Shown: positions 4,720-30,222 of the stretch, piece after piece
Position numbering within the stretch: position 1 is the stretch's first letter
Layout of the letters: the number at the start of each line of letters is the position of its first letter
Source of the DNA: Candidatus Companilactobacillus pullicola
GTDB taxonomy: Bacteria > Bacillota > Bacilli > Lactobacillales > Lactobacillaceae
Direction: 5' to 3'
Length of the DNA: 33,012 nucleotides
Assembly (NCBI GenBank): GCA_019116025.1
Contig: DXCM01000034.1
Coordinates: 1 to 33,012, forward strand
The notes under the pieces: model-generated
The model's input: the letters and a program-made list of their open reading frames with translations, nothing else
What the model was told of the DNA's origin: nothing
The model's database searches: none
Program-made: the position numbers and the translations under genes

Positions 4720-4747
4720 CCAATCCGTGAAGGATTGGCTTTTTTTT
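4720..4747 (+). terminator. Terminator after mecA
   Basis: CCAATCC (4720-4726) pairs with GGATTGG (4732-4738) and is followed by eight T residues. The T run leads straight into the competence-type box before coiA. Confidence 0.9.
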
Positions 4748-4756
4748 GCGTAATTT
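4747..4756 (+). promoter_or_regulatory. Putative competence-sigma box upstream of coiA
   Basis: TGCGTAATTT lies 18 nt before the coiA start and directly after a T tract. The same core CGTAATTT precedes cinA and comFA. It resembles the streptococcal cin box TACGAATA. Function is inferred. Confidence 0.5.
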
Positions 4757-4774
4757 TTACTAGAGGTGATGAAA

Positions 4775-5626
4775 TTGTATGCTGCTTTAGACAAATCAGG
4801 CCTACTAGTATATGCACTGAAAGCCGATAAGAATAATGAGTATTATTGTTGTCGCTGTAAACAAAAAGTTAAATTGATCACCACAGCGTCCAGAGTTTAT
4901 TTTCGGCATAAAAATAAATGTGATAATTCAATAAATGAGCGCTTGATTCATCAAAAAGGTAAAAAATTAATCTTGGATGAATTGAGTAAACTGAAGCCGC
5001 AATTTTTAGAAGAGGAAACTTACTTATCGAGAATAAAACAACGCCCAGATATTCTAGTGAATAAGAATTTTGCAGTTGAATATCAATGTGCAAAAATAAA
5101 CATCAATCTTTTGAGTAAACGAGTTAAAGGATATCGAATAGCAGGAATAAAAAATATTTGGATTTTAGGTGGTCACTACTTAAAGAGACGGTTGGGGCGA
5201 GAACACCTTAAATTCATCACTTATAATAAAACTTGGAAATTTTATTTATTAATGCTAGATTCACAACAGGAAAGATTGACACTCTTTTATAATATTGAAT
5301 TCATTGGACCGTTCAACACTTTGACATATCAAAAAAAGATATTTGCGAGGGATGAATTTTGGAAAATATTCATATTTCGTCCTAAAGAAATATCGAAATT
5401 GGAAGTTACTCTCAGTGAACGTTGGTTAAATAAAATTAGAAGAAAAAGTGATTCAGATTCACAGAAACTTAAATTGAATTTTTATAATACTTATAAGATC
5501 ACAGTAGAAGACTACCTCAAAGAGGCAATTTTTGAAGCCGAATTTCCTATTTTTGCTACACCGGCTTGGCAGAGATATTGTGGTCAAGTCCCTAAAAGAT
5601 TAAAGCAACCGTTGCTAAAAAAATAG
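4775..5626 (+). CDS. coiA: Competence protein CoiA, nuclease-like
   Basis: CoiA is needed for natural transformation and acts after DNA uptake, with recombination proteins. Visible parts: an N-terminal Cys/His cluster (YYCCRCKQKV ... FRHKNKC) suggesting a zinc site; a helix with NERLIHQKGK; and a PD-(D/E)xK-like nuclease core RPDILVNKNFAVEYQ (about residues 90-104), whose D, E and Q are the expected catalytic set. The C-terminal half is poorly conserved, as usual for CoiA. I place the start at TTG 4775, 5 nt after AGAGGTGA (4762-4769). An ATG at 4769 overlaps that ribosome binding site and a GTG at 4766 lies inside it. About 283 residues. It stands between two terminators, so it is probably transcribed alone from the competence-type box. 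Confidence 0.88.
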   Translation: MYAALDKSGLLVYALKADKNNEYYCCRCKQKVKLITTASRVYFRHKNKCDNSINERLIHQKGKKLILDELSKLKPQFLEEETYLSRIKQRPDILVNKNFAVEYQCAKININLLSKRVKGYRIAGIKNIWILGGHYLKRRLGREHLKFITYNKTWKFYLLMLDSQQERLTLFYNIEFIGPFNTLTYQKKIFARDEFWKIFIFRPKEISKLEVTLSERWLNKIRRKSDSDSQKLKLNFYNTYKITVEDYLKEAIFEAEFPIFATPAWQRYCGQVPKRLKQPLLKK

Positions 5627-5663
5627 CTACTAGAAACCAATCGGCATCTAGTAGCTATTTTTA
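5617..5663. terminator. Bidirectional terminator between coiA and spxH
   Basis: Perfect 14-bp arms (5621-5634 and 5647-5660) have a poly-A run on the left and T residues on the right, so the structure can stop transcription from both converging genes. It overlaps the coiA stop codon. Confidence 0.9.
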
Positions 5664-5670
5664 TGTAAAG

Positions 5671-6327
5671 TTATTTTCTAAATCTATCTAAGCTGATAAC
5701 GGTTCCTGAAGTGGAAACATTACTAACGACATCTTGTTGGGGAAGTTCACGTTCTAACATCATATTGATGTTGTTGGTGATATCTTCCTGAGAAGTGGAT
5801 TCTCCGAAGTTGTTGATCATTACGCCGGGTTTTTCTTCATCTTCACAATCAAAAATTACCGCAGTTGGGGCCTTTTGAATGTGCATTTCCATCGACAATT
5901 GTTGATCACGTTTTAATCCTTGGATGACACATTGACTTTCTTTGTCAGTCATGATGGATTTATAATCAAGCCCACTATTGTTAATTACACGTCTGATAGT
6001 GTTATCATCAAAGGGATTATTTAAAATATTTACTTGTTCTTGAAGATTCATTAAAAAGTTACGTGCTTTTTTATTACCTTGACAAGAAGCTGCCTTGTAA
6101 AGTTTGGCTGCCTCGATGACATCTTGGGACGCACAAGTGCGCTCTTTCATATCGGTAATCTTGAAACCTTTTAATTGAACATAATCATTAATTGTTGCCA
6201 TATTATAGTTCGTTACAAAGTGATATTGTGTGTCAATATCGTGTTTTCTGGTGAAATCAATAATTGCTTGCTCCACTTTTAAACAATACGAACATAATGG
6301 ATTAATATATAAGAATACTTCCCACAT
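5671..6327 (-). CDS. spxH: ClpXP adaptor protein SpxH (YjbH family)
   Basis: SpxH is a DsbA-fold adaptor that binds Spx and speeds its degradation by ClpXP; oxidative stress inactivates it and so stabilises Spx. The 218-residue protein begins MWEVFLYINPLCSYC, with the thioredoxin-like CxxC at Cys12/Cys15 that is typical of the family (NPLCxxC). The start at 6327 is preferred because GGAGGG lies 7 nt upstream; the next ATG (6342) would lie before that ribosome binding site. It is convergent with coiA, in the same cluster as its likely target spxA. The peptidase gene pepF found beside it in Bacillus is absent. Confidence 0.9.
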   Translation of the reverse strand: MWEVFLYINPLCSYCLKVEQAIIDFTRKHDIDTQYHFVTNYNMATINDYVQLKGFKITDMKERTCASQDVIEAAKLYKAASCQGNKKARNFLMNLQEQVNILNNPFDDNTIRRVINNSGLDYKSIMTDKESQCVIQGLKRDQQLSMEMHIQKAPTAVIFDCEDEEKPGVMINNFGESTSQEDITNNINMMLERELPQQDVVSNVSTSGTVISLDRFRK

Positions 6328-6357
6328 TATGTTTCCCTCCATCTCTATTGCAATGTC

Positions 6358-6386
6358 ATTCTACCAACATTTTTAAAAAAGGTAAA
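6358..6386 (-). promoter_or_regulatory. Probable spxH promoter
   Basis: Read on the minus strand: TTTACC, 17-bp spacer, TAGAAT. A TGG just before the -10 makes an extended -10 (TGGTAGAAT). Confidence 0.6.
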
Positions 6387-6429
6387 ATTTTAAACTCAAA
6401 GATTGGTAATATTTATAATTAGATGAATC

Positions 6430-6457
6430 TTTTACGAAACTACGATATATTTATATT
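6430..6457 (+). promoter_or_regulatory. Weak candidate promoter of the relQ operon
   Basis: TTTTAC (6430-6435) and TATATT (6452-6457) with 16-bp spacing, 14 bp before the relQ start. The match is modest; it is the only plausible one in the short divergent intergenic space. Confidence 0.35.
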
Positions 6458-6471
6458 AAAGCGAGGTTACT

Positions 6472-7128
6472 ATGTCAGAAATCAAATGGAATGAATTTTT
6501 GATACCTTATTCACAGGCAGTTGATGAACTAAAAATAAAATTTAGAAATTTACGTAAAGAATTTCTCGAAAAAAATGAGCATTCACCTATTGAATTTGTA
6601 ACGGGACGTGTTAAAACAGTCGATAGTATTAAAGAAAAAATGCGTCGCCGGTTTATTTCAGAGGAATTATTGAAACAAGATATGCAGGATATCGCAGGAA
6701 TAAGAATCCAGTGTCAGTTTGTAGAAGATATTTATGACGTGGCCAAATTGCTTCATATTCGTGAGGATATGCGAGTGGTCGAAGAACGTGACTATATTGC
6801 AAACAGTAAGCCAAGCGGGTATCGCTCATACCATGTAGTAATTGAGTATCCTATTCAAACAGCTAATGGTCAAATTAATATTCTTGCTGAAATTCAGATC
6901 AGAACATTGGCGATGAATTTCTGGTCAACAATTGAGCATTCGTTAAATTACAAATACAAAGGCGATTTCCCAGAAGAGATCAATGAACGATTGAAACGAG
7001 CAGCTGAGGCTTCCTTCATGTTGGATGAGGAAATGTCTAAGATACGTGAAGAAATTCAGGATGCTCAGCAATACTTTACAGATCGAAAACGGGATTTGAA
7101 TGGCCCAACGGAGCAAAATAAAAAATGA
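6472..7128 (+). CDS. relQ: Small alarmone synthetase, GTP pyrophosphokinase (RelQ/YjbM)
   Basis: Makes (p)ppGpp from GTP/GDP and ATP without a hydrolase domain. The 218-residue length matches the single-domain RelQ/SAS1 class. Synthetase motifs are visible: RRRFISEELLKQDMQDIAGIRIQCQF (an N-terminal RxKxxxS-like ATP region then DIAGIR), SGYRSYHVVIEY, and EIQIRTLAMNFWSTIEHSLNYK with the catalytic-region EIQIRT. The C-terminal helix (about 180-215) is charged, as in the tetrameric members. The ribosome binding site GCGAGG is 5 nt before ATG. It overlaps nadK by 4 bp; the order relQ-nadK-rluD is the same as yjbM-ppnK-yjbO of Bacillus. Confidence 0.93.
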   Translation: MSEIKWNEFLIPYSQAVDELKIKFRNLRKEFLEKNEHSPIEFVTGRVKTVDSIKEKMRRRFISEELLKQDMQDIAGIRIQCQFVEDIYDVAKLLHIREDMRVVEERDYIANSKPSGYRSYHVVIEYPIQTANGQINILAEIQIRTLAMNFWSTIEHSLNYKYKGDFPEEINERLKRAAEASFMLDEEMSKIREEIQDAQQYFTDRKRDLNGPTEQNKK

Positions 7129-7937
7129 AATTATGGATTAATAATAACAATAAAGAACAGTCAGTTGAAGCCGCCAATAAGTTACGTAGCAAATTGCTAG
7201 ATGCCGGCTTAATCTTGGATCGTCGAAATCCGCAGTTGGTTATCAGTGTGGGTGGGGATGGAACTCTTTTGAGTACCTTTCACGCTTATGCAGCACATTT
7301 AGATCGAGTGAAATTCCTAGCGCTACATACTGGTCATTTAGGCTTTTATTCCGATTGGACTGATACGGAAATTGATGAGTTGGCTAAACGGATCATTGAA
7401 TGTCAGGATAATATTCCATCAACTAGCTACCCGGTTTTGGATGTCGTAGTCGAAAACAAAGAGGGCTCACTCTTTCATGGAATAGCTATTAACGAGACCG
7501 TTGTCAGACGACTTTCTTCTTTAACGATGAAAGCCAGAGTTGATCTAGATAAGGAATTTTTTGAAAGTTTTCGTGGGGATGGACTCTGCTTTTCCACTCC
7601 AACTGGATCAACAGCTTATTCTAAATCGGTTGGTGGGGCCTTGATTCACCCTAAAATCAGTGTTTTTCAAATGATTGAAATAGCCTCGATCAATAACCGT
7701 GTCTATCGGACAATCTCTTCACCAATTATCATTCCTCATAATCAGCAAGTTGACCTTTATCCACAGACAGCTGATGATTATGTTATCAGTTGTGACGGGA
7801 TTACAACTAAGCTCAAAAATGTTAAGAAGATAACAATTAAACTTAACTATCAACGAGCTCAATTTGCCCAATATCGTCATCGACACTTCTGGACTAGAGT
7901 AGAGACTGCCTTTTTAGCACAGAATGAAAAAAAATAA
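7125..7937 (+). CDS. nadK: NAD kinase
   Basis: Phosphorylates NAD+ to NADP+. The 270-residue protein has the diagnostic GGDGT at residues 43-47, with the following TLLSTFHAY. Further conserved segments are the NE of AINETVV, and FRGDGLCFSTPTGSTAYSKSVGGAL in the C-terminal beta domain, which binds the NAD ribose. Translation is coupled to relQ through an ATGA overlap, and the 3' end overlaps rluD by 14 bp. Its place beside an alarmone synthetase ties NADP supply to stress metabolism by co-expression. Confidence 0.95.
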   Translation: MKLWINNNNKEQSVEAANKLRSKLLDAGLILDRRNPQLVISVGGDGTLLSTFHAYAAHLDRVKFLALHTGHLGFYSDWTDTEIDELAKRIIECQDNIPSTSYPVLDVVVENKEGSLFHGIAINETVVRRLSSLTMKARVDLDKEFFESFRGDGLCFSTPTGSTAYSKSVGGALIHPKISVFQMIEIASINNRVYRTISSPIIIPHNQQVDLYPQTADDYVISCDGITTKLKNVKKITIKLNYQRAQFAQYRHRHFWTRVETAFLAQNEKK

Positions 7938-8844
7938 TCGTTTCTTAAAATTTGTGATTAATCATCATGACAAGAAAACCATCCGTAAATTTCTCGTGCA
8001 ACATAAATTCTCCTCTAGTCAGTTGCATAATTTGAAGAATAAAGGTGGACAAATTTTTGTTAATCACAAGCAACGTCATTTTAATTTCCAATTGCATGAT
8101 GGAGATGAAATGTTGATCGTCCTCAATTCTGAAGAACCATCTGATTTGATAAAACCAATGACTGGTCCTGTGGATATTATATTTGAGGACGATTATTTAT
8201 TAGTAGTCAATAAGCCACCAGGGATAGCTAGTCTTCCTGCTAAAGCTCGTGATAGTAAAACTATGGCCAATTTGGTTAAGGCTTACCTGATCTCTAAAAA
8301 GGAGAACAGTACGATTCATTTGGTGACACGTCTAGATCGTGATACTTCGGGACTAATGGTTTTTGCTAAAACATCGTACGCTCATTCACTGTTAGACCAA
8401 ATTCTTCACACCGAGAATTTTCAAAAGTTTTATTTAGCGATGATTTATGGACACGTCGAGCCCAAAGAAGGATTAATCGACTTACCAATAGGAATCGATC
8501 CCAAAGCCTTTTATAAACGAGCAATTGATCATCGAACAGGGAAGAATTCACAGACAATTTATAAAACGGTGGAAGATTATGCCACGGGTAGTTTATTGGA
8601 ATTAAAGCTATTAACAGGTCGGACTCATCAAATCCGTGTACATCTATCCGCAATTGGTCATCCTATTATTGGCGATGATATGTATAGCCAAAAAATTGAT
8701 CCCCGAATCAATCGTCAGGCGTTACATTGTTATAATTTGCAAATCGTCCATCCAGTAACCAAAGAGTTATTAAATTTAAAGGCGCCTTTACCTCAGGATA
8801 TGGTAATCTTAAAGAGTGTGTTAAGGGGTGAGAGAAATGGATGA
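7924..8844 (+). CDS. RluA/RluD-family pseudouridine synthase
   Basis: Converts uridine to pseudouridine in rRNA or tRNA. The protein has 306 residues. An S4-like N-terminal region (about 15-68, KKTIRKFLVQHKFSSSQLHNL...) is followed by the catalytic domain with RLDRDTSG (136-143), Asp138 being the predicted nucleophile, then a GRTHQIRVHL motif (about 240-249). The start ATG lies within the nadK end and has only a weak ribosome binding site, which suggests translational coupling. It corresponds to Bacillus YjbO. The exact target position is not deducible, so I give no symbol. Confidence 0.92.
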   Translation: MKKNNRFLKFVINHHDKKTIRKFLVQHKFSSSQLHNLKNKGGQIFVNHKQRHFNFQLHDGDEMLIVLNSEEPSDLIKPMTGPVDIIFEDDYLLVVNKPPGIASLPAKARDSKTMANLVKAYLISKKENSTIHLVTRLDRDTSGLMVFAKTSYAHSLLDQILHTENFQKFYLAMIYGHVEPKEGLIDLPIGIDPKAFYKRAIDHRTGKNSQTIYKTVEDYATGSLLELKLLTGRTHQIRVHLSAIGHPIIGDDMYSQKIDPRINRQALHCYNLQIVHPVTKELLNLKAPLPQDMVILKSVLRGERNG

Positions 8845-10210
8845 AAATGAAAAGAGACTGCAAGAAAGATTTGAACAGTTAAAACGGTACCTCGATAGTA
8901 ATGATAAGAAAAGGTTTCGAAAAACCTATCTTGATATGCATTTTTACGATCAAAGTACGTTCTATCTCACTTTAAATAAGGAAGAACGAACAACACTCTA
9001 TTCCATCTTGGAACCAGATGAAATGGGGGATATGTTCGATACCATTGAAGATGACAATCCAGCCATTCCAGAATTGTTGAAAGAAATGGATTTAGATTAT
9101 GCTTCTAAGATGCTAAACGACATGTATGATGATAATGCTGCCGATGTCTTGGAGCATTTAGATAAAGTTGATGTTGACCGATTCTTAGAACAAATGCCTA
9201 AGAATGATGCCAATAATCTACGTGGCTTGTTGCATTATGATACTGAAACTGCCGGTGGTATTATGACCACAGACTACGTTCAGTTCCATGAAGAAGAAAC
9301 AGCTGCCAGTGCAATTAGGGCATTGAAAAAATTTGCGGAAACGGCGGAGACAATTTATTATCTATATATTTTAGATAGTCACGATGACTTAGTCGGTGTA
9401 ATGTCGTTACGTGATTTAATTATGTTAAATGATAACGACACTTTGGGTAATCACATGAATAGTGACGTTATAACGGTCAATGTCGATGCAGAACAGGCTG
9501 AAGTAGCCCAAGTCTTCAGAGATTATGAATTTCTAGCTGTTCCAGTTGTCGATCATTCAAATAAGTTGGTTGGTATCGTTACGGTTGATGATGTAATTGA
9601 AGTTATTGATGATGAAGCTCAACAAGACTACTCTGGTTTGGCCGGTGTTAGTATGGATGAAGCTAATAATGATGGACCTTTCAAGGCTGCTTCCAAACGT
9701 TTGCCTTGGTTGATCACTTTGTTATTACTGAGTATGATCACGGCTACTTTAATCAACCATTTTGAAGGTTTGTTGGCAGAAGCTAGTATTTTGGCTGTCT
9801 TTATTTCTACTATTACAGGTACTGCCGGTAACGCCGGTACACAAAGTTTGGCTGTGGCAGTTAGAAGATTAGCGGTTGAAGAAATTAATCGTCATGAATT
9901 TTTGAAATTGATTGGTAAGGAATTGATCACCGGTTTTGTTACGGGATTAGTAACAGGGATATCGGTTTGCTTACTAGTAGGAATTTGGAAACATAATTTT
10001 GTTTTAGGAATGGTAATTGGTTTAGCCATGTGTGCCGCTATAACGGTTGCTAACTTGGCAGGTAGTTTGATACCAATGCTGATGTCCAGCTTTGGATTTG
10101 ATCCAGCTGTTGCCAGTGGACCATTTATCTCAACTTTGAGTGATTTGACCAGTGTATTGATTTACTTCAGTATTGCTGGAATGTTTATGCAATATTTCGT
10201 CAAAGCTTGA
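8837..10210 (+). CDS. mgtE: Magnesium transporter MgtE
   Basis: Mg2+-gated Mg2+ channel of the plasma membrane, about 457 residues. Order of parts: N-terminal superhelical Mg2+-sensing domain (about 30-130), two CBS domains (about 135-255, including YYLYILDSHDDLVGVMSLRDL and FLAVPVVDHSNKLVGIVTVDDV), a plug helix, and five transmembrane helices from about residue 285. The pore segment TGTAGNAGTQSLAVAVRR is present. The ATG at 8837 is chosen because AAGGGGTGA (8823-8831) is 5 nt upstream; the frame is also open from a GTG at 8828 inside that site. It overlaps rluD by 8 bp. No M-box leader is possible here, so control must come from the operon promoter or from the protein itself. Confidence 0.94.
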   Translation: MDENEKRLQERFEQLKRYLDSNDKKRFRKTYLDMHFYDQSTFYLTLNKEERTTLYSILEPDEMGDMFDTIEDDNPAIPELLKEMDLDYASKMLNDMYDDNAADVLEHLDKVDVDRFLEQMPKNDANNLRGLLHYDTETAGGIMTTDYVQFHEEETAASAIRALKKFAETAETIYYLYILDSHDDLVGVMSLRDLIMLNDNDTLGNHMNSDVITVNVDAEQAEVAQVFRDYEFLAVPVVDHSNKLVGIVTVDDVIEVIDDEAQQDYSGLAGVSMDEANNDGPFKAASKRLPWLITLLLLSMITATLINHFEGLLAEASILAVFISTITGTAGNAGTQSLAVAVRRLAVEEINRHEFLKLIGKELITGFVTGLVTGISVCLLVGIWKHNFVLGMVIGLAMCAAITVANLAGSLIPMLMSSFGFDPAVASGPFISTLSDLTSVLIYFSIAGMFMQYFVKA

Positions 10211-10253
10211 ATAATTCAATACTTTGAAATAAATTATTTTTTAGCTTCAAATC

Positions 10254-10307
10254 AAAAAGGGTGTTCATATCAACTGAGCTTAATCAGTTGGTATGAACAC
10301 CCTTTTT
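10254..10307. terminator. Bidirectional terminator between mgtE and cutC
   Basis: Arms 10254-10269 and 10292-10307 are perfect over 16 bp, extended inward by CAACTGA (10271-10277) with TCAGTTG (10284-10290). A-run on the left, T-run on the right; it serves both converging operons. Confidence 0.92.
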
Positions 10308-10333
10308 ACTAGTTATAAAATTTTTATTTGAGC

Positions 10334-10987
10334 TTAGTTATTAACTCCGTCAATAACCTTTGTTCCATGAACTTCTTTGACACCTAATTTTTTAGCAATA
10401 TCGTCACAATTTTGATAATTAACGCCACCACCAGGTAAAATAGCAATTCTACCAGCAGCGTAGTCAACGTATTCTTTAATCTTGTCGACTGTTTGGTCAA
10501 TTGGTGTAGTCAAGGGTCCACCGTGAGTGAGGATACGGTCAACGTCATGTTCAACTAGCCAATCAATAACAGGTTTCTTGTTATCTTCTGCTAAAGCGTC
10601 AAAGGCCATGTGGAAAACAATTTGCATACCTGATGAGGCAGCAATTAATTGCTCCATTGCTTCTTCATCTAAATCGCCATCCTCAGTTAATGCACCAAAA
10701 GTTACAGCGTCAACGCCAAGTTTTTGAGCTTGGAAGAGGTCAGCTTCCATCATTTTAATTTCTAGGTCGTTATAAACGAAATTTCCGCCACGAGGACGAA
10801 TCATTTCTACGACGGGAATAGATTTTTCTTGAAGATATTTTGTGCTTTCTTGTAGAACACCTAAACTTACTGTGGTTCCACCAACAGCTAAATTGTCATT
10901 CAATTCAATTCTGTTAGCACCTTTTAACACAGCTTTAGGAATATTGGTAAAATTTTCAACAGCAACTTCTTTATAAATAATAATCAA
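10334..10987 (-). CDS. cutC: CutC family protein (copper homeostasis family)
   Basis: TIM-barrel protein of the CutC family, 217 residues, linked to copper tolerance in older literature although the biochemical role is unsettled. Typical segments are EVAVENF, GANRIELNDNLAVGGTTVSLGV, MIRPRGGNFVYND, and ILPGGGVNY near the end. The start is unusual: there is no ATG or GTG before residue 60. The best reading is TTG at 10987, but that codon directly touches the GGGAG ribosome binding site; an ATT codon a few bases later would have better spacing. Last gene of a minus-strand group, separated from uppP by a terminator. Confidence 0.88.
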   Translation of the reverse strand: MIIIYKEVAVENFTNIPKAVLKGANRIELNDNLAVGGTTVSLGVLQESTKYLQEKSIPVVEMIRPRGGNFVYNDLEIKMMEADLFQAQKLGVDAVTFGALTEDGDLDEEAMEQLIAASSGMQIVFHMAFDALAEDNKKPVIDWLVEHDVDRILTHGGPLTTPIDQTVDKIKEYVDYAAGRIAILPGGGVNYQNCDDIAKKLGVKEVHGTKVIDGVNN

Positions 10988-11002
10988 CTCCCTTATTTTT
11001 TT

Positions 11003-11044
11003 AAAATAAAATCCCGATCAATTATAATACAATCGATCGAGATT
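11003..11044 (-). terminator. Terminator between uppP and cutC (minus strand)
   Basis: On the minus strand 14-nt arms (11031-11044 with 11010-11023) pair completely if two G-U pairs are allowed, followed by TTTTATTTT. It should reduce read-through from uppP into cutC. Confidence 0.7.
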
Positions 11045-11060
11045 AAACTAGTATGTAAAA

Positions 11061-11900: not shown

Positions 11901-11933
11901 AATAATTAATTATTCTCCTGACTAAATTTGGAA

Positions 11934-12953: not shown

Positions 12954-13021
12954 TACAAAAACCTCCAAACATTGTATAGTATATAGTATATTCTTAATAG
13001 AAAAGTTTTGGGGAGTACTTT

Positions 13022-19187: not shown

Positions 19188-20464
19188 AAAAAAAATTAGC
19201 AAAGAATATTTTTTTGAATATTAATCCAATAAAGAAATTTCGAACTATTAAGATTCAAGTAGACTTTTTACGTCCATTAAATAAAGATGAGACAACCAGT
19301 CGACGCTTATTGGCCAATGTTTTGTCTAATTCGACGAAGGATTATCCCAGTTTTCAAGCGATAAATGACCGTGAAATGGATCTCTACGGGTCGGAGATAA
19401 ACGTCTATACACGTAATTTGCTTAATTTTAACGATTTGGCTTTTAGTGTGGAGTTCGCTGATCCTAACTTCTTGATTGATGGACAGACACAAATCAAAGA
19501 CAATTTAGATTTATTAGGAGAAATTATTTTTAAACCCAATTTGAATGGTGGAGTTTTTGATGATGAGGCCTATTCAACTGAGAAACGTAATTTGATGTCT
19601 AATTTGTCATCAATTCAAGATAATCAAGATTTAGTCAGTTCACTCGGATTGATTAAATTGATCTATCGTGATGATCCTAATCGTCAGGTGCCAATTTTTG
19701 GGAGTATTGATCAACTAGAAAAACTTCAAAATGATGAACTTTTGAAGACTTATCAAGACGTTATTGATAATGATCTAGTAATTATCAATGTAGTGGGAAA
19801 TATTGACGAGACGGAATTTCTGGAATATTTGAATGAAAGTATTTTTGCTGAAAAGTTGAAGAGTGATCGCAATGATTTGACTATCTCTTTTAGTAATTTT
19901 GATGATTTAATTAAACATCCAGCTAATCAGATCGAACATAAAAATTTGAATCAGAGTCGTATCGGTTTGGCTTATGCGACTGAAGGTGTAACTAAAGATT
20001 TCAATCGTATGGCGCCGCAAGTTATGAACTTGATTTTGGGTGGCGATGATCAGTCACAATTATTTTTACAAGTACGTGAAAAGAACAGTTTAGCTTATTC
20101 AGTTTCTAGTACTTATCAACCAATCAGTCACTTAGTAACAATCCAAGCAGGATTGGATGCTGACTCAATTGAAGAGGCACTGTCATTAATCAATGATCAA
20201 ATTGCTTATATCAAAGACGGAAAAGTTACTGATGATCAGATAAAACATGCTCAGAAGGTAATGCTCACACGTCGAAAAATATCTACCGATTCAATTCAGT
20301 ATTATATTATGCGCAGTATTTGGGAAACGATTTATCCAAAGACTTTGTTGAGCAATCAACAATTTGAAGATGAATTGAACAATTTAGATAAAAAGCATGT
20401 AGCAAGCGTTGCCGCACACATGCATGCTATCGCGCAGTATCAATTGATTGGAGATTATAAATGA
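19184..20464 (+). CDS. M16-family peptidase-like protein YmfF, inactive partner
   Basis: Insulinase-like (M16) protein of 426 residues, annotated in this family as EF-P 5-aminopentanol modification-associated. The zinc motif HxxEH is absent; the equivalent N-terminal region reads RRLLANVLSNSTKD. The C-terminal half keeps the REKNSLAYSV segment, the Arg/Tyr pair that M16 enzymes use to hold substrate. This division between a partner without zinc and one with zinc is that of heterodimeric M16 peptidases, so it probably acts with the next gene product. Start is TTG at 19184, 4 nt after AGGTGA, overlapping the ftsK stop; the end overlaps the next gene by 4 bp. Confidence 0.87.
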   Translation: MKKKLAKNIFLNINPIKKFRTIKIQVDFLRPLNKDETTSRRLLANVLSNSTKDYPSFQAINDREMDLYGSEINVYTRNLLNFNDLAFSVEFADPNFLIDGQTQIKDNLDLLGEIIFKPNLNGGVFDDEAYSTEKRNLMSNLSSIQDNQDLVSSLGLIKLIYRDDPNRQVPIFGSIDQLEKLQNDELLKTYQDVIDNDLVIINVVGNIDETEFLEYLNESIFAEKLKSDRNDLTISFSNFDDLIKHPANQIEHKNLNQSRIGLAYATEGVTKDFNRMAPQVMNLILGGDDQSQLFLQVREKNSLAYSVSSTYQPISHLVTIQAGLDADSIEEALSLINDQIAYIKDGKVTDDQIKHAQKVMLTRRKISTDSIQYYIMRSIWETIYPKTLLSNQQFEDELNNLDKKHVASVAAHMHAIAQYQLIGDYK

Positions 20465-21699: not shown

Positions 21700-21702
21700 G
21701 CT

Positions 21703-22425: not shown

Positions 22426-22452
22426 GCTCGTTAGTAGTTAGATAATAATTTA

Positions 22453-22461
22453 TGTTATACT
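22453..22461 (+). promoter_or_regulatory. Extended -10 promoter before rodZ
   Basis: TGTTATACT forms a TGn plus TATACT, 29 bp before the rodZ start. No convincing -35 is seen. Confidence 0.45.
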
Positions 22462-22490
22462 TAGAAAAATTAGTTAATCGGTGGTAAAAA

Positions 22491-23333: not shown

Positions 23334-23335
23334 AG

Positions 23336-23376
23336 TAATGGTGTCTAATCTAATAAGAGTGGACACCATTATTTTG
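23336..23376 (+). terminator. Terminator after rodZ
   Basis: TAATGGTGTC (23336-23345) and GACACCATTA (23362-23371) form a 10-bp perfect stem followed by TTTTG; the T tract is short, so read-through to pgsA is possible. Confidence 0.7.
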
Positions 23377-23407
23377 TAAAAAAGAGTTATTATTGGAGGA
23401 TATTTTA

Positions 23408-23992: not shown

Positions 23993-24002
23993 TACGTAAT
24001 TT
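23993..24002 (+). promoter_or_regulatory. Putative competence-sigma box upstream of cinA
   Basis: TACGTAATTT begins at the base after the pgsA stop and ends 13 nt before the cinA ATG. The identical 10-mer precedes comFA, and a one-base variant precedes coiA. In streptococci cinA-recA is driven by the competence sigma factor from a similar box. Confidence 0.5.
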
Positions 24003-24015
24003 GAAAGAGAGAGCA

Positions 24016-24555
24016 ATGAATAAATCAATCGAAATTTTAAAAGAAGTTGAACAGACTAATTTTGAAAAAGGATTGCCACAAAAATGGTCTGATTTTTCTA
24101 CGGAAACAGTTGAAAAACTTAAACAAAATGGATTAAAAGTAACAGCTGCTGAAAGTTTAACAGCCGGATTGTTTCAAGCGACAATTGCCTCAGTTCCTGG
24201 AGCTTCGAATGTTTTTGATGGTGGTTTTGTTACTTATGCTGATGAAGTTAAGGTCCAACTGTTAGGGATGGATCCCAAATTGATTGAACAATATACGGTA
24301 GTCAGTAATCCTGTAGCTAAAGCTATGGCTGAATTGTCGGCTAAAAAGTTAAATGCTGATATTGGCCTTGGTTTTACAGGGGTAGCTGGACCGGATCCTT
24401 TAGAAGGAAATCCTGTGGGGACTGTTTTTATAGGAGCATGCAATCGTCAAAATCATCAAGAAGTTATTAAAAAATTTCATTTTGAAGGTACAAGGCAAGC
24501 AATTCGTTTGAAGTCAGTTTTGTGTGGATTTGCTCTCATTCAAGAAATAATATAA
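24016..24555 (+). CDS. CinA C-terminal domain protein, nicotinamide-nucleotide amidase type (PncC)
   Basis: The 179-residue product covers only the C-terminal amidase domain of CinA: VTAAESLTAGLFQATIASVPGASNVFDGG with the active-site Ser region, VVSNPVAKAMA, and GFTGVAGPDPLEGNPVGTVFIG. Full-length CinA of Bacillus and streptococci has about 410 residues with an N-terminal MocF/MoaB-like domain, which is absent here; upstream is pgsA, not a broken N-terminus. The domain removes the amide from nicotinamide mononucleotide in characterised PncC proteins. AGAGAG precedes the ATG. The place before recA is the classic competence arrangement. Full-length cinA could exist elsewhere in the genome. Confidence 0.85.
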   Translation: MNKSIEILKEVEQTNFEKGLPQKWSDFSTETVEKLKQNGLKVTAAESLTAGLFQATIASVPGASNVFDGGFVTYADEVKVQLLGMDPKLIEQYTVVSNPVAKAMAELSAKKLNADIGLGFTGVAGPDPLEGNPVGTVFIGACNRQNHQEVIKKFHFEGTRQAIRLKSVLCGFALIQEII

Positions 24556-24580
24556 CGAACAAACATTTGTTCGCTTTTTT
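24556..24580 (+). terminator. Terminator between cinA and recA
   Basis: CGAACAAA (24556-24563) and TTTGTTCG (24566-24573) with only CA between the 8-bp arms, then C and six T residues. The very small loop would force the inner pair open. Confidence 0.75.
24560..24573 (+). promoter_or_regulatory. Near-consensus LexA (SOS) box before recA
   Basis: CAAACATTTGTTCG matches the Gram-positive LexA/DinR operator CGAACNNNNGTTCG at 9 of 10 defined positions. It ends 8 bp before the recA -35 and coincides with the right part of the cinA terminator, so the sequence may serve both purposes. Binding is inferred. Confidence 0.4.
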
Positions 24581-24581
24581 C

Positions 24582-24610
24582 TTGCTTTTTTCGTCGATTA
24601 CTAATAATAT
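24582..24610 (+). promoter_or_regulatory. Probable recA promoter
   Basis: TTGCTT (24582-24587), 17-bp spacer, TAATAT (24605-24610), 33 bp before the recA start codon. Confidence 0.5.
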
Positions 24611-24643
24611 ACTTAATGATGAATGCATTAGGAGGAAAGCAAT

Positions 24644-25768
24644 TTGGCTAAAGATGAACGACAAAAGGCTTTAGATGTAGCCTTAAAGAAGATTGAAAAG
24701 GACTTTGGTAAAGGTGCCATTATGAGAATGGGTGATGACCTTAACACTCAAATCTCGACTGTTTCCACTGGTTCTTTGGCTCTTGACAATGCTTTAGGTG
24801 TTGGTGGATTTCCAAGAGGAAGAATCGTTGAAATTTATGGACCTGAAAGTTCTGGTAAAACAACTGTAGCTTTACACGCCGTTGCTGAAGTACAAAAGCA
24901 AGGCGGAACAGCCGCTTATATTGATGCTGAAAATGCCATGGATCCAGAATATGCTAAGGCTTTAGGCGTTAATATTGATGATTTATTGCTATCCCAACCT
25001 GATACTGGTGAACAAGGACTAGAAATTGCTGATGCATTGGTAAGTAGTGGGGCAGTCGACATTGTTGTTGTCGATTCTGTTGCCGCTTTAGTACCACGTG
25101 CTGAAATTGAAGGTGAGATGGGTGATTCTCACGTTGGTTTGCAAGCAAGATTGATGTCACAAGCATTACGTAAGCTTTCTGGTTCTATCAACAAAACTAA
25201 AACAATTGCACTTTTCATTAATCAAATTCGTGAAAAAGTTGGTATTATGTTCGGTAACCCTGAAACAACACCTGGTGGCCGTGCTTTGAAGTTCTATGCA
25301 ACAATTAGACTAGAAGTTCGTCGTGCAGAACAAATCAAAGACGGTACAGATGTAATTGGTAACCGTACAAAAATCAAAGTTGTTAAGAACAAAGTTGCGC
25401 CACCATTTAAGGTTGCTTTAGTTGATATCATGTATGGTAAGGGGATTTCTCAAACCGGTGAATTGGTCGACATGGCGGTTGATAAAGATATCATCGACAA
25501 GAGTGGATCATGGTACTCATATGGCGATGAAAGGATTGGTCAAGGTCGTGAGAATGCTAAGACCTACTTGGCTGAGAACCCTGAAAAAATGGACGAGATT
25601 AAACAAAAAGTTCGTACAGCATATGGTATGGATGGAGTTGCTAAAGATGAAGCTGAATCAGAAGATGATAAGGATGATTCCAAGGCAAAAAAAGATACTA
25701 AAGATTCTTCAAAAAAGAACGAAAGTATCGATTTAATTCCTGATTCAAATAAAAAAGAGACTGAATAA
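24644..25768 (+). CDS. recA: Recombinase RecA
   Basis: Central homologous recombination and SOS co-protease, 374 residues. Walker [10 protein letters not shown] is at 66-74, and the Walker B region contains [15 protein letters not shown]. The DNA-binding loops include [23 protein letters not shown] and [18 protein letters not shown]. The acidic/Lys C-terminal tail (about 330-374) is longer than in many homologues and rich in Asp, Glu, Lys and Ser. The start is TTG at 24644, 5 nt after AGGAGGAAA; the protein begins (L/M)AKDERQKAL as RecA normally does. It follows cinA by 88 bp, with a terminator, a possible SOS box and its own promoter between. Confidence 0.97.
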
Positions 25769-25780
25769 GTCTCTTTTTTT
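25751..25780 (+). terminator. Terminator of recA
   Basis: AAAAAAGAGACT (25751-25762) and AGTCTCTTTTTT (25768-25779) pair across GAATA. It overlaps the recA stop codon. Confidence 0.92.
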
Positions 25781-25792
25781 CTTTTTATTTGG

Positions 25793-25820
25793 TTGACAGG
25801 CCATATTTATTCTATAATAT
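25793..25820 (+). promoter_or_regulatory. Promoter of rny
   Basis: Perfect TTGACA (25793-25798), 16-bp spacer, TAATAT (25815-25820); TATAAT is also readable at 25813 with a short 14-bp spacer. The leader before rny is about 70 nt and AT-rich. Confidence 0.65.
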
Positions 25821-25898
25821 TAAGTTGTATGTAAATAATTTGTAACAATACATTTTACAAACAAATCTTTTAAAAAAAGCAAATATGGAGGTGATAGC

Positions 25899-27464
25899 AT
25901 GTATCCAGCTATCATAACCTTCTCTTTCGCTCTAGTAACATTGATCGTAGGTATACTCTTCGGATATGCTCTCTGTAAGGATGCTTACGAAAAGAAACTT
26001 TCACAAGCTAAACAAACTGCTGAAGATATTGTTTCAGATGCAAAAAAAGCTGCTAAATCCTTGCAAAAGGAAAAGCTTCTTGAAGCTAAAGATGAGATTC
26101 ATCAATATCGTGAGAAACAAGAAGATGAATTGAAGGAACGTCGTAAAGATGTTCAGAGACAAGAAAATCGTATTCTCGAACGACAAGACATTTTGGATAA
26201 AAAAGACCAATCGCTTGAAAAGCGTGAGGAAAATATCGAAAATAACGAGAACGATATTTCGGCACGACAACAGAAACTTAGTGAAAAAGATAAACAATTG
26301 ACTGAAACTCTTAATGAACAGCAAGCGGAGCTGGTAAGAGTAAGTAACTTAACACGTGAACAAGCAAGAAAGATTATTCTTGGTAAGTTGAACAAGGAAT
26401 TGGTACATGAACGTGCCAAAATGATTAAGGAAAGTAACGAACAGGCCAAACAACATGTTGAAAAAGATGCTAAGGCCTTGATTGTTGCTGCCATTCAAAG
26501 AAGTGCAGCTGATACAGTATCTGAATCAACTGTTACTACCGTTACATTGCCTAATGAGGACATGAAGGGAAGAATCATTGGACGTGAAGGTAGAAATATT
26601 CGTACAATTGAATCTCTAACTGGAGTCGATTTGATTATTGATGATACACCTGAAGCGGTTGCTTTAAGTGCTTATGATCCTGTCAGAAGAGAAATTGCAA
26701 GAATGGCTTTGGAAAAATTAATTGAAGATGGTAGAATTCATCCAGCTCGTATCGAAGAAATGGTCGATAAGGCTAGAAAAGAAATGGATGATCATATTCG
26801 TGAGATTGGTGAACAAACAATTTATAGTTTAGGCATCAGTTCCATTAATCCAGATTTGATTAAGATCATTGGACGTATGCAATATCGTACAAGTTACGGT
26901 CAAAATGTTTTGAGTCACTCAATCGAGGTAGCCAAGTTATCCGCTGTAATGGCTGCTGAAATGGGTGAAGATGTTATGTTAGCAAAACGAGCAGGTTTAT
27001 TACACGATATCGGTAAATCCATCGACCGCGAAGTTGATGGATCACACGTAGAAATAGGTGTTGATATCGCAACTAAGTATAAAGAACCAGAAGTAGTTAT
27101 TAATACAATTGCTTCACATCATGGGGATGTTGAACCAACATCATTTATTGCAACAATCGTTGCAACTGCTGATGCAATTTCTGCAGCACGTCCTGGTGCT
27201 AGATCAGAATCGATGGAGAATTATATTCATCGTCTCGAGAAACTTGAAGAAATTGCTAATAAGCATGATGGTGTTGATCATTGTTATGCAATTCAAGCAG
27301 GTCATGAAATCCGTGTTATGGTTAAACCAGAAGAGATTTCAGATGACCAAGCAGCAATTCTAGCTCGTGATATTAAGGGCGAGATTGAGCAAAATCTTGA
27401 ATATCCCGGTCACATTAAAGTTACAGTGGTCCGTGAAGTTAGAAAAGTAGAATTAGCTAAATAA
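25899..27464 (+). CDS. rny: Ribonuclease Y
   Basis: Membrane-anchored endoribonuclease that starts mRNA decay. The protein has 521 residues, the usual length. Order: N-terminal membrane helix (about 3-24), a long charged coiled coil (about 28-190), a KH RNA-binding domain (about 205-270, [33 protein letters not shown]), and an HD metal-dependent phosphodiesterase domain (about 330-430) with [10 protein letters not shown] carrying the catalytic His-Asp, followed by the family's C-terminal domain. GGAGGTGA lies shortly before the ATG. It follows recA as in Bacillus, though with its own promoter. Confidence 0.96.
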
Positions 27465-27469
27465 AATGG

Positions 27470-27497
27470 GGGTGTATCGTTTGATACGCTCTTTTTT
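27470..27497 (+). terminator. Terminator of rny
   Basis: GTGTATC (27472-27478) pairs with GATACGC (27483-27489) through one G-T pair, followed shortly by six T residues. Confidence 0.8.
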
Positions 27498-27566
27498 AAT
27501 TTGTTTTTTGTTTAGGCTATAGGTATTGTATAATTGTTTTATTAACGGAAAGTGAGTTTTTCAAAA

Positions 27567-28661
27567 ATGTCGGGTATGTTTAGTGTAATAGTAAAATTAT
27601 TTTTAACGATGATTCTGTCGGCTATAATAACTCCTTTCGTAGTGAAATTAGCCTATATTTTGGGTGCTGTTGATAAACCAAATGCACGGCGTGTGAATAT
27701 AAAGCCAATGCCTACGATGGGTGGGCTAGCCATTTTTATCGCATTTAATTTTGCTACGTTTGCTTTGTTGCGAGAACAATTCCCAACCCATGAGTTATTC
27801 AGTGTTTTCTTAGCGGAATGTATTATTGTCTTAACAGGAATTATTGATGATATACGGGAATTATCACCTAAAGCTAAATTAGCGGGTATTTTTGCAGCTT
27901 CTCTAGTTATTTATTTCTTAGCTGGTATCAGAATGAATGAAGTAACTTTACCAATTATTGGTTCATTTGAACTTGGTTGGTGGAGTTTACCAATAACGAT
28001 CATTTGGATCATTGCCATTACTAATGCCGTCAATTTAATTGATGGGTTAGATGGATTGGCGACTGGTGTTTCGATTATTGCCTTATTTACCATGGGAGTT
28101 ATGGCTTACTTCTTCTTAAATCTAACCAATGTCTATGTGGCTATTTGGATTTTTGCTTTGGTATTTGCTCTAGTAGGTTTTCTACCGCATAATTTTCATC
28201 CAGCTAGCATCTTTTTGGGTGATACGGGATCACTTTTTATTGGCTTTATGATGGCAGTCTTCTCATTGAAGGGTTTAAAAAATGTGACTTTCATTACTTT
28301 ATTAATGCCAGTTGTTATCATGGGTGTTCCAATTACTGATACAGTTTATGCAATTTTAAGAAGACTTTTGAACAAGAAGCCAATCATGCAGGCTGATAAA
28401 CATCACTTGCACCATAGACTAATGCAACTAGGATTATCACATCGTCAAACTGTGTTGGTCATCTATGGATTATCTTTGGTCTTTGCCTTTATTTCCATGC
28501 TCTATCCATTATCGACTCTCTGGGGCAGTGTTTTGTTAACAATCGGAGTTCTGATTGGTTTGGAACTGTTTATTGAGTCAATAGGATTACTTGGTGATAA
28601 TCGTCAACCATTACTACATGCAATTCAAAAATTTATTAAACGATTAGAAAAAAAAGATTAG
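27567..28661 (+). CDS. tagO: Undecaprenyl-phosphate N-acetylglucosamine-1-phosphate transferase (TagO/WecA/MraY superfamily)
   Basis: Polytopic membrane enzyme that loads N-acetylglucosamine-1-phosphate on undecaprenyl phosphate, the first step of wall teichoic acid or other polymer synthesis. About 364 residues with some ten membrane segments. Family motifs are present: GGLAIF near the first loop, IIDDIRELSPK with the catalytic Asp pair, NAVNLIDGLDGLATG, FLGDTGSLFIGF and the HHLHHRL sequence on the fifth loop that marks the polymer-type members rather than MraY. The ATG at 27567 is chosen; a GTG at 27552 also opens the frame, and the ribosome binding site (GGAAAGTGAG) is imperfect for both. 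TATAAT at 27529-27534 is a likely -10. No other teichoic acid genes are adjacent. Confidence 0.87.
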   Translation: MSGMFSVIVKLFLTMILSAIITPFVVKLAYILGAVDKPNARRVNIKPMPTMGGLAIFIAFNFATFALLREQFPTHELFSVFLAECIIVLTGIIDDIRELSPKAKLAGIFAASLVIYFLAGIRMNEVTLPIIGSFELGWWSLPITIIWIIAITNAVNLIDGLDGLATGVSIIALFTMGVMAYFFLNLTNVYVAIWIFALVFALVGFLPHNFHPASIFLGDTGSLFIGFMMAVFSLKGLKNVTFITLLMPVVIMGVPITDTVYAILRRLLNKKPIMQADKHHLHHRLMQLGLSHRQTVLVIYGLSLVFAFISMLYPLSTLWGSVLLTIGVLIGLELFIESIGLLGDNRQPLLHAIQKFIKRLEKKD

Positions 28662-28690
28662 CAGACGCCGTTATAGCGCCTGTTTTTTTT
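28661..28690 (+). terminator. Terminator of tagO
   Basis: CAGACGC (28662-28668) pairs with GCGCCTG (28676-28682) with one A-C mismatch, followed by eight T residues. Confidence 0.85.
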
Positions 28691-28731
28691 GTATCTAATA
28701 ACGACTCTACAATTGCTAGATACCGATAGAC

Positions 28732-28760
28732 TGGATTCAACAGTATGTAGGTAGTATAAA
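28732..28760 (+). promoter_or_regulatory. Promoter region of the XRE gene with an upstream inverted repeat
   Basis: TGGATT (28732-28737), 17-bp spacer, TATAAA (28755-28760). Upstream, GTATCTA (28691-28697) and TAGATAC (28717-28723) are a perfect 7-bp inverted repeat that could be an operator, possibly for the regulator's own control. Confidence 0.45.
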
Positions 28761-28802
28761 TAGATGACACCCCTTTTAATGGAAATTGAGGAGATATGAA
28801 AA

Positions 28803-29513
28803 ATGAAATTAAGTGAGCAATTGAAGAAGTATCGAAAAGCAGAAAATTTAACGCAAAAAGAATTAGCGCAGAAGTTGAATGTTTCTGATAAAACAATTTC
28901 GAGCTGGGAAACAGGAAGAACTTATCCTGATATTTCTTTATTGATTAATTTAAGTTCCATTTTGCAGATATCCTTGGATGAATTTTTAAAGGGAGATGTA
29001 ACAACGGTGGAAAAAATTGATAAAGATTTGAAAATGAAAAATGTTTATAAATATTGGTTGATAGGGGTCGTAGCAATTTTTCTGGTTGTTGTTGGACTGG
29101 GAACCTTTCTTACAAACTACCAATATGAGAATCAGTGGGTAGATCGGTTTAATCCATTTATAAAGACTGAAATAGGATATGCTCCCTTACCTGAGAATAA
29201 AACTTTAAAAGCAGGCGCCCCATATAAAGATATTGTTGTGGTTGACGATGAATGGGGTAATTCAACCTTATTAGACTTTTATGGTGGCTTACATCCAAAG
29301 GACAAAGATTATGTGATGGTGCAACATAGAGGCTTGTACGTCTCTAGAATCAGTTTTATATCACGGGATGTAATTCCTAAGATCTATCGAAATTATATGT
29401 ACAAGGATTATGATGAAATGGCTAAAAATGTCAAAGTTATGAAGAAGTATGGTGATGGAGGGATTCCAGGTTCTGATAAGCACTTTGGTTTAAGTAATGG
29501 GGACTATGAATAA
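28803..29513 (+). CDS. Membrane-tethered XRE-family regulator with extracytoplasmic domain
   Basis: Protein of 236 residues in three parts. Residues 1-64 are a Cro/C1-type helix-turn-helix (LSEQLKKYRKAENLTQKELA, then SDKTISSWETGRTYPDISLL). Residues 84-104 are one membrane helix. Residues 105-236 are predicted to lie outside and show no family I recognise, with YGGLHPKDKDYVMVQHRGLYVSRISF in the middle. The design suggests direct sensing across the membrane, but neither signal nor targets can be read from sequence. It is transcribed alone, with its own promoter and a strong terminator. Regulators of this form are common in lactobacilli and often control themselves or a neighbour. Ribosome binding site GAGGAGA precedes the ATG. 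Confidence 0.82.
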   Translation: MKLSEQLKKYRKAENLTQKELAQKLNVSDKTISSWETGRTYPDISLLINLSSILQISLDEFLKGDVTTVEKIDKDLKMKNVYKYWLIGVVAIFLVVVGLGTFLTNYQYENQWVDRFNPFIKTEIGYAPLPENKTLKAGAPYKDIVVVDDEWGNSTLLDFYGGLHPKDKDYVMVQHRGLYVSRISFISRDVIPKIYRNYMYKDYDEMAKNVKVMKKYGDGGIPGSDKHFGLSNGDYE

Positions 29514-29514
29514 T

Positions 29515-29560
29515 AAAAACTCTCAATCAATTCGTTTTTTAGAATTGATTGAGAGTTTTT
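29515..29560. terminator. Bidirectional terminator between the XRE gene and yigZ
   Basis: Perfect 19-bp arms (29515-29533 and 29542-29560) with A-run and T-run ends. It overlaps the last bases of yigZ. Confidence 0.93.
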
Positions 29561-30197
29561 AATTTGCTTCAATGGGCACCTGTTTGTAAGTTTTTTCAGT
29601 TTCTTTTAACGTAATTTGATTTTGAAAGAGATCCTTAATATTTTGAACGGTTTGCTCAGCACTATCTAAGTCTAAGAAAATCTGACATTTAACGTCGGTT
29701 GAGAATTGTTTATCTTCTAAATTAATTTTTTCTTTCTGAGCGTAATTATCAAATTTATCGAACATATGATAAGGAATTGCCAATTCATATCCCTGTTGAA
29801 TACGATTTTCGACTAAGCCGATTTCTTTAACCGCTTCAGCAGTTGTTGAAGAGTAAGCCCTGATTAGCCCACCAGCACCTAACTTAATCCCCCCAAAGTA
29901 ACGAGTTACAACAACAGTCACATTTAAAAGATCTTGCTGTTGAAGGACATTTAAGATTGGAGGACCTGCTGTACCACTGGGTTCGCCATCGTCAGACATA
30001 CGTTCAATTTTGACATTTTCCATAACGATGTAGGCCGTACAATTGTGGGTTGCTCCAGATTCCTGTTCTCTGATCTTTTGAATAAAGGCTTTAGCCTCAT
30101 CTTCAGAGAAAGTTTGAGCAATGTGAGCAATAAAGCGTGATTTTTTAATATCTTTTTCGTGACTACCAGCTTCGGCAATCGTTTTATAATTTTGCAA
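29559..30197 (-). CDS. yigZ: YigZ/YvyE family protein (IMPACT fold)
   Basis: 212 residues of the UPF0029/IMPACT family. The N-terminal domain carries the signature region MSDDGEPSGTAGPPIL and VVVTRYFGGIKLGAGGLIRAYS. The C-terminal part (about 135-212) is the DUF1949 ferredoxin-like domain. Cellular function is not settled; eukaryotic IMPACT acts on translation control. The start is TTG at 30197, with GGAGAA 7 nt upstream; no ATG lies nearer. It is divergent from comFA with only 30 bp between the coding regions, as in Bacillus where yvyE neighbours comF. Confidence 0.9.
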   Translation of the reverse strand: MQNYKTIAEAGSHEKDIKKSRFIAHIAQTFSEDEAKAFIQKIREQESGATHNCTAYIVMENVKIERMSDDGEPSGTAGPPILNVLQQQDLLNVTVVVTRYFGGIKLGAGGLIRAYSSTTAEAVKEIGLVENRIQQGYELAIPYHMFDKFDNYAQKEKINLEDKQFSTDVKCQIFLDLDSAEQTVQNIKDLFQNQITLKETEKTYKQVPIEAN

Positions 30198-30212
30198 AAA
30201 AATATTCTCCTT

Positions 30213-30222
30213 TACGTAATTT
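30213..30222 (+). promoter_or_regulatory. Putative competence-sigma box upstream of comFA
   Basis: TACGTAATTT, identical to the box before cinA, ends only 5 nt before the comFA ATG. If it acts as a -10 element the mRNA would begin about at the ATG. No ribosome binding site is visible in the 30-bp gap on this strand. Confidence 0.5.

Follow-up and report, generated by a model that had tools for sequence, protein, structure and literature searches.

The competence boxes of the window

The window considered here, the whole 33,012-nucleotide (nt) stretch of Candidatus Companilactobacillus pullicola that was analysed (GenBank contig DXCM01000034.1; contig C8 among the 99 contigs of a 2.93-Mb draft genome), carries the genes coiA, cinA and comFA, each of which is preceded by a copy of the 10-mer TRCGTAATTT, referred to below as the competence box (Table 1). 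All three copies lie on the plus strand, and a scan of the whole window found no further copy on either strand. The chance expectation is 0.27 copies (shuffle mean), and three or more copies appeared in 0 of 100 shuffles. The eight-base core, CGTAATTT, has nine matches in the window on both strands, compared with 2.12 expected; its extra plus-strand matches, at 19412, 19586 and 29610, all fall within open reading frames (ORFs). A preliminary description of this DNA had placed the 10-mer before these three genes and nowhere else on the plus strand, with the shorter core inside a few genes, and the window scan bears out both statements. The motif itself stands only in part: the positions of the sites hold, but the 5' TR is not conserved, and the motif is CGTAATTT with a T at position -2.

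Table 1. Competence boxes and associated features of the window (SD, Shine-Dalgarno sequence).
Feature	Position	Strand	Basis or remark
Terminator-like stem CCAATCC-gtgaa-GGATTGG with T-run, downstream of mecA	4720..4747	+	Sequence reading
coiA competence box TGCGTAATTT	4747..4756 (core 4749-4756)	+	Box in 30/30 genus genomes, 22 perfect
coiA	4775..5626	+	Pfam CoiA_nuc, 90.8 bits; SD GAGGTGA 4763-4769
cinA-recA competence box TACGTAATTT	23993..24002 (core 23995-24002)	+	Box in 12/12 loci with cinA
cinA	24016..24555 (ATG 24016)	+	Pfam CinA, 167.3 bits
Candidate LexA-type operator AAACATTTGTTC before recA	24561..24572	+	RAAC-N4-GTTC type
recA, TTG start	24644..25768	+	ORF; name by sequence reading
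comFA competence box TACGTAATTT	30213..30222 (core 30215-30222)	+	Between divergent yigZ and comFA
comFA	30228..31538 (ATG 30228)	+	Pfam helicase domains fitting ComFA
comFC-like phosphoribosyltransferase	31535..32215	+	Pribosyltran barely above cut-off, DZR_2 below cut-off

The gene mecA, upstream of coiA, is confirmed by Pfam, and the last T of the T-run that follows its terminator-like stem is also the first base of the coiA box. The start codon of coiA is most likely the TTG at 4775, where relatives carry ATG, with GTG 4766 and ATG 4769 as possible alternatives. The cinA-recA box adjoins the TAA stop codon of the upstream CDP-alcohol phosphatidyltransferase gene, and the translated recA of the window matches loci of 16/16 relatives by tblastn. 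For comFA, ATG 30228 replaces the GTG 30159 of the ORF list, and the comFC-like gene overlaps the end of comFA. The window comFA shares 82% identity with its counterpart in Companilactobacillus paralimentarius and 81% with the one in C. kimchii. Sixteen comFA loci are at least 54% identical to it, 15 from Companilactobacillus records and one from a metagenome-assembled genome labelled uncultured Lactobacillus.

Conservation of the box in Companilactobacillus

The genus set comprised 30 genomes for comGA, comEA, coiA, dprA and radC and 29 for comC; comFA was examined in the window and its 16 relatives, and cinA in the window and the 11 of these 16 that gave a tblastn match. A box was counted when CGTA was intact and at most one mismatch to CGTAATTT occurred just upstream of the gene. 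By this measure, the box precedes comGA in 29/30 genomes, comC in 29/29, coiA in 30/30, dprA in 29/30, radC in 29/30, cinA in 12/12 loci and comFA in 16/17, the seventeenth comFA locus carrying CGTAGTAT at the same place. It is also found in 27 of 29 true comEA cases, and the comEA genes of genomes G006, G008 and G014 (the last left out) have profile matches of 35 bits at the correct place. One comGA locus in two pieces (L140) was cut by hand, one comEA slice (L154) was omitted and a false comEA box (L166) was not counted.

The resulting consensus is TNCGTAATTT. A balanced profile of 66 promoters is T-rich from -8 to -2, with T at a frequency of 0.81 at -2, and its core reads C, G, T, A, A (0.81), T, T, T, in which C, G, T, A, T, T and T are near invariant. 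No -35 element stood out in this profile of 66 promoters. The gene radC did not contribute to the profile; a profile match in the own genome (G000) pointed to it, and its box was then confirmed in 29/30 genomes. Enrichment before other com genes had been put forward in the preliminary description as a check, and the box does occur before comGA, comEA, comC and dprA, while comEC is covered only via comEA. The box is very probably a switch element before the DNA-uptake genes throughout this genus, whose members are food bacteria.

The same box accompanies a second dprA-like gene, which is present in 18 of the 30 genus genomes (L474, L476, L481, L489 and L494-L507). Twelve of these 18 have a box with CGTA and no more than one mismatch, at a distance of 5 to about 38 nt (by eye) from a downstream ATG or TTG, and in three of the 18 the match contains one stop codon.

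Within the same set, the comC prepilin peptidase (PF06750) was not found in the own draft genome, though it is present in 29/29 relatives; with 99 contigs and an estimated contamination of 8.2%, this gap is possibly an assembly artefact. The dprA of genome G028 (G028:C10:282607-283202) matches in two pieces in different frames. Outside the genus, some comFA upstream regions keep boxes of the TTTGCGTA type, among them those of Enterococcus italicus, Enterococcus sp. CU12B and Oenococcus kitaharae (L046-L066, by eye), so that much of the order may have CGTA, and not CGAATA, as its form of the box.

With a T at -2 and T-rich sequence on its 5' side, CGTAATTT is in all likelihood the -10 element of SigH/ComX competence promoters, in an arrangement that would also include shielding from read-through and a hairpin gate at dprA. 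A ComX/SigH-type promoter was the reading of the preliminary description as well, and it gains support from the box before eight units and the SigH-like gene of 30/30 genomes; from these, we infer the sigma specificity and the transcript starts. It is most improbable that the box is conserved instead through overlapping coding or ribosome-binding site (RBS) constraints: the bases 5' of the comFA box do fit an RBS of yigZ on the minus strand, and the TAA of the radC box also terminates the upstream reading frame (by eye), but the same eight bases stand before eight units with different neighbours.

Distance to the start codon and predicted leaderless genes

In most units, a Shine-Dalgarno sequence (SD) lies between the box and the start codon. 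The distance from core to start is 15-23 nt for comGA, 16-20 for comEA, 16-19 for comC, 17-22 for coiA, 13-14 for cinA and 21-27 for dprA (ranges without rows L112 and L158 and the false L166). The comFA box, in contrast, ends 5 nt before the ATG in 15/15 loci measured by script and in two more by eye, so that CGTA with the 5-nt spacing is found in 17/17, and the radC box ends 5-8 nt before the ATG in 29/29. An SD score of at least 4 of 6 was reached by 0/15 comFA and 0/29 radC genes. Because the box lies 5-8 nt before the ATG and no SD is present, the comFA and radC mRNAs are predicted to be leaderless. If the core, which nearly touches the ATG, is a -10 element, the +1 position would fall on or beside this codon, and the fixed spacing of comFA and radC is an argument for the core as -10. 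The box-5 nt-ATG arrangement is also seen in the second dprA-like genes of G029, G002, G010 and G006.

The spacing bears on a different explanation as well, in which CGTAATTT is the site of a ComK-like DNA-binding activator upstream of an ordinary sigma-A promoter. Such an activator would likewise be competence specific, and a short, near-invariant core without a visible -35 element resembles an operator. However, the box lies 5-27 nt from the start codon, and only 5 nt in comFA, which leaves no space for a sigma-A promoter downstream of it; it is also single-sided rather than palindromic. In addition, a sigH-like gene is present in 30/30 genomes, and in Latilactobacillus (L.) sakei many of these genes are driven by SigH (PMC3364868). 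The activator explanation is accordingly very unlikely.

Terminator-like stems and the dprA hairpin

A terminator-like stem with a T-run stands directly before the box in 25/29 comGA, 21/28 comEA and 18/30 coiA loci. The corresponding counts are 0/29 for comC, 0/12 for cinA, 0/16 for comFA and 2/29 for radC; the cinA-recA box, which has a growth gene downstream, is without this type of shield. Several com units thus appear to be shielded from read-through.

At dprA, the box and the stem are merged. The own leader reads AAACATCACTTT-CGTAATTT-GAGTT-AAGGGAGTGATGTTT-TTATTATG, in which the box separates the two arms of a stem, the 3' arm contains the SD, and a T-run fills the interval from there to the start codon. 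A strict hairpin test required the SD in the 3' arm, a predicted energy of at most -10 kcal/mol, a T-run of at least four between SD and start, and CGTA, CGAAT or CGAAC inside. The broken dprA of G028 (L332) being left out, 28 of 29 Companilactobacillus dprA leaders passed, the exception (L328) having -9.1. Hairpin and T-run together, with the box not required, occur in 0 of 127 leaders of comGA, comC, coiA, comEA and cinA (three skipped) and in 0 of 23 window genes, one of which has a hairpin. An earlier, loose measure of SD pairing proved useless (27/29 seen, with 17.2 expected from shuffles), and this stricter test took its place. Six dprA loci gave no match in Rfam.

The layout extends beyond the genus. 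Of 79 further genomes of the order, 78 have dprA; with G059 (two pieces), L461 and L466 (no start) excluded, 75 leaders were tested. Their family labels (f1-f9) and genus labels are anonymous, and f4 is called streptococcus-like from its CGAATA boxes. The strict test was passed by 6/9 leaders of f1, 7/8 of f3, 3/9 of f5 and 6/10 of f9, and by 0/10 of f2, 0/10 of f4, 0/1 of f6, 0/10 of f7 and 0/8 of f8; one f3 case (L408) is counted although its CGTA abuts the SD, leaving six clear f3 cases. Altogether, 11 of 32 other genera show the layout, with arms that vary in sequence from family to family but remain paired. In the genus alignment, 93.1% of cells are paired, compared with 47.7-57.5% in slid controls, and cells changed on both sides number 25, compared with 7.4 after shuffling (0/500 shuffles).

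The mean openness of the SD in 28 genus leaders is predicted to rise from 0.13 in read-through RNA to 0.49 in RNA starting 5 nt after the core, and by family from 0.06 to 0.64 (f1), 0.04 to 0.39 (f3), 0.02 to 0.56 (f5) and 0.00 to 0.45 (f9). The RNA hairpin that holds the box may keep dprA silent until the switch is used. Since its 3' arm is followed by a T-run before the AUG, the hairpin probably terminates transcription as well as hiding the RBS.

A competing view takes the hairpin as a mere terminator of the upstream gene rnhB, its overlap with SD and box being compaction without regulatory meaning. It fits with the co-directional upstream ORF, whose end is 25-50 nt from dprA in the 12 Companilactobacillus leaders displayed and which was read as RNase HII-like in four loci, and with the terminator-like stems that abut the comGA, comEA and coiA boxes too. 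Compaction alone is nevertheless the less likely explanation. In 28/29 leaders, the 3' arm contains the SD and the T-run fills the spacer between SD and start, the same layout recurs with different arm sequences in 11/32 other genera, pairs covary within the genus, and in f2 and f8 the hairpin-plus-T-run is found in 0/18 leaders, though 7/18 have CGTA or CGAAT. Moreover, a plain terminator would give much the same gating.

The candidate sigma factor and the proposed mechanism

The own genome has three Sigma70_r2 genes. One of them, encoding a SigH-like protein of 187 aa, has a gene for an rlmB-like methyltransferase on one side and rpmG-secE-nusG-rplK on the other (neighbours identified by reading), and sigH of L. 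sakei and of B. subtilis is found at the same kind of locus (PMC3364868). The protein passes the sigma70-ECF superfamily model, and a homologue is present in 30/30 genus genomes, with 42-84% identity outside the own genome. Overexpression of SigH in L. sakei, followed by quantitative PCR, raised the mRNAs of comFA, comEA, comGC and comC 261- to 608-fold and that of dprA 2163-fold, and that of recA just 2.7-fold (PMC3364868). The own genome also encodes a second RpoD-like sigma factor of 303 aa (L271:6341-7252, G000:C3) on a 10-kb contig, and an ORF of 625 aa beside it reads as an N-6 DNA methyltransferase (by reading only).

In the proposed mechanism, once SigH is made, RNA polymerase would start about 5-6 nt after the core at comGA, comEA, comC, comFA, coiA, cinA-recA, dprA and radC, and at the second dprA-like gene in some species. 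The boxes of comGA, comEA and coiA mostly overlap the T-run that follows an upstream terminator-like stem, which would limit read-through. RNA reading through from rnhB would either be terminated or have its dprA SD hidden by the hairpin, whereas SigH-started dprA RNA would begin inside the hairpin, lack the 5' arm and escape the block.

The 10-mer has little value as a predictor, since com genes account for only 5 of its 66 copies in the own genome (coiA, cinA, comFA, comEA and radC). The other 61 comprise 47 in ORFs of at least 110 aa (35 antisense only, 11 sense, one both) and 14 outside both ORFs and com genes, and use of TRCGTAATTT alone as a genome-wide predictor was rejected. The comGA and dprA genes of the own genome are missed by it because both carry TTCGTAATTT. 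The signal comes from the conserved position of the box across species and not from the 10-mer alone. Additional regulon members proposed by the own-genome profile scan (on C6, C93, C82 and C78) were discarded, being between convergent genes, at least about 80 nt from a plausible start, or coding. Of 24 unassigned profile matches examined among those listed in relatives, a recurring one is attributed to coding conservation, as it lies inside one conserved ORF, and others were cinA, second dprA-like genes or single cases. Separately, inspection by eye showed copies of TACGTAATTT in repeat-like intergenic DNA of the own genome that no com gene follows (L013, L257, L264 and L265).

Several observations weigh against the mechanism. 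The core is short, and the 61 of 66 own-genome copies of the 10-mer away from com genes show how often it occurs elsewhere; the own-genome profile scan ranks matches in coding sequence among the com matches, scores dprA at 9.0 bits only and omits comFA. The SigH-like protein falls far below the cut-off of the SigH equivalog models (best 40.3 vs 208 bits), so that the superfamily model is the only one it passes. In genome G004, sigH is split over two frames (G004:C1:2293080-2293633), yet the com boxes are present, which means that boxes can outlive an intact sigma gene. As for the hairpin, it occurs without T-run in 24 of the 127 control leaders, and a simple terminator scan leaves the dprA hairpin unflagged because its loop is too long for the scan. 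The number of pairs changed on both sides is unremarkable (4 vs 2.1; 38/500 shuffles). Five of the 28 genus leaders stay below 0.3 in predicted SD openness, among them the own leader, for which the prediction is 0.17 in read-through RNA and, with RNA starting 4, 5 or 6 nt past the core, 0.03, 0.12 and 0.36 respectively; two of these three shortened RNAs are thus predicted to be no more open.

LexA-type boxes and a possible SOS link

The sequence RAAC-N4-GTTC occurs within 300 nt upstream of the sigH match in 30/30 loci, typically inside GTAAACAAATGTTCGCTTAAAAT; as background, the other genus loci that were scanned contain it 0.008 times per 300 nt. In 29/30 it lies about 64-102 nt before the match (L363-L392; own locus L269, minus strand). 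Upstream of recA, a box of this type, AAACATTTGTTCGCTT, is found in 15/16 relatives, GAACAGATGTTT (GAAC-N4-GTTT) in the remaining one, and one is also present in the window. RAAC-N4-GTTC has the form of the Gram-positive LexA box, for which the B. subtilis consensus is CGAACRNRYGTTYC.

The boxes suggest LexA control of the competence sigma factor, and control of competence by the SOS response would be a prediction from them rather than a result. A 2013 study of 15 Lactobacillaceae genomes called the LexA regulon universal among them and reported LexA in Lactobacillaceae and not in Streptococcaceae (PMC3616900). Against an SOS link, the level of sigH left survival of ultraviolet irradiation unchanged in L. 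sakei (PMC3364868). A joint reading, in which competence is an SOS branch with a LexA-repressed sigH, dprA has a sigma-gated RNA switch like that of phage T4 (see below) in several Lactobacillales families, and comFA and radC are leaderless, is put forward tentatively, with a somewhat less than even chance of being right in all its parts. If it were true, DNA damage would release SigH, which would read the CGTAATTT promoters.

Comparison with known systems

The kind of regulon is known, and the new parts would be the box, the leaderless members and the dprA gate. Its closest counterpart is the streptococcal system, in which ComX/SigX reads the CIN-box or com-box: both have a SigH-type sigma factor and a CG-containing box before the late com operons, coiA, dprA, cinA-recA and radC. 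In Streptococcus suis, the CIN-box is YTACGAAYW (PMC5167698). The streptococcal consensus TACGAATA is not found in this role in Companilactobacillus, where the core CGTAATTT is one base longer between CG and AAT, and, unlike in streptococci, the comFA and radC boxes almost reach the start codon. The dprA box of Companilactobacillus lies inside a hairpin that resembles both an RBS-hiding structure and a terminator, whereas the streptococcus-like f4 genomes have CGAAT upstream of dprA in 10/10 cases and the hairpin in 0/10.

The SigH regulon of L. sakei is similar in that its sigma gene is at the same kind of locus and the comF, comE, comG and comC genes and dprA are SigH-activated (PMC3364868). 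The words motif and consensus are absent from the main text of that article, and coiA, cinA and radC are not named in table 2. The LexA regulon of Lactobacillaceae shares with the present genomes a LexA-type box before recA, although recA is not named in the main text of PMC3616900; the same text differs in naming neither ComX nor SigH and contains competence once, in a reference. Among the papers listed in searches of open-licence PMC, none has a title or abstract opening that describes a lactobacillus competence box or leaderless com genes, and CGTAATTT was uninformative as a literature query, none of the matches listed being on competence by title.

According to a 2025 review, natural transformation is counted as feasible in just a few lactic acid bacteria (PMC12470161), and the com genes searched are present in nearly all 30 genus genomes. 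The box, the sigma gene and the candidate SOS operator offer testable handles on the trigger of sigH, the transcript starts and the gating of dprA at the RNA level.

For dprA, two known systems are relevant. In B. subtilis, dprA has no promoter of its own, is fed by read-through from sucCD and is kept low by Rho acting on this transcription (PMC12350095). Halting transcription from the upstream gene would be common to both organisms, but in Companilactobacillus it would be due to a local hairpin combined with a candidate promoter of the gene itself. The layout could serve as a test bed for how bacteria silence a recombination mediator. The second system is gene e (lysozyme) of phage T4: its early read-through RNA is folded so that the RBS is hidden, and its late promoters lie inside the folded region (PMC3014915). 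The dprA layout is comparable, with an RBS predicted to be paired in the longer RNA and a putative alternative-sigma promoter in the 5' part of the hairpin, so that read-through RNA would be blocked and promoter-started RNA free. Unlike gene e, dprA is a cellular gene, and its hairpin layout is found in several families; it would thus be a cellular case of the promoter-in-hairpin switch known from phage T4.

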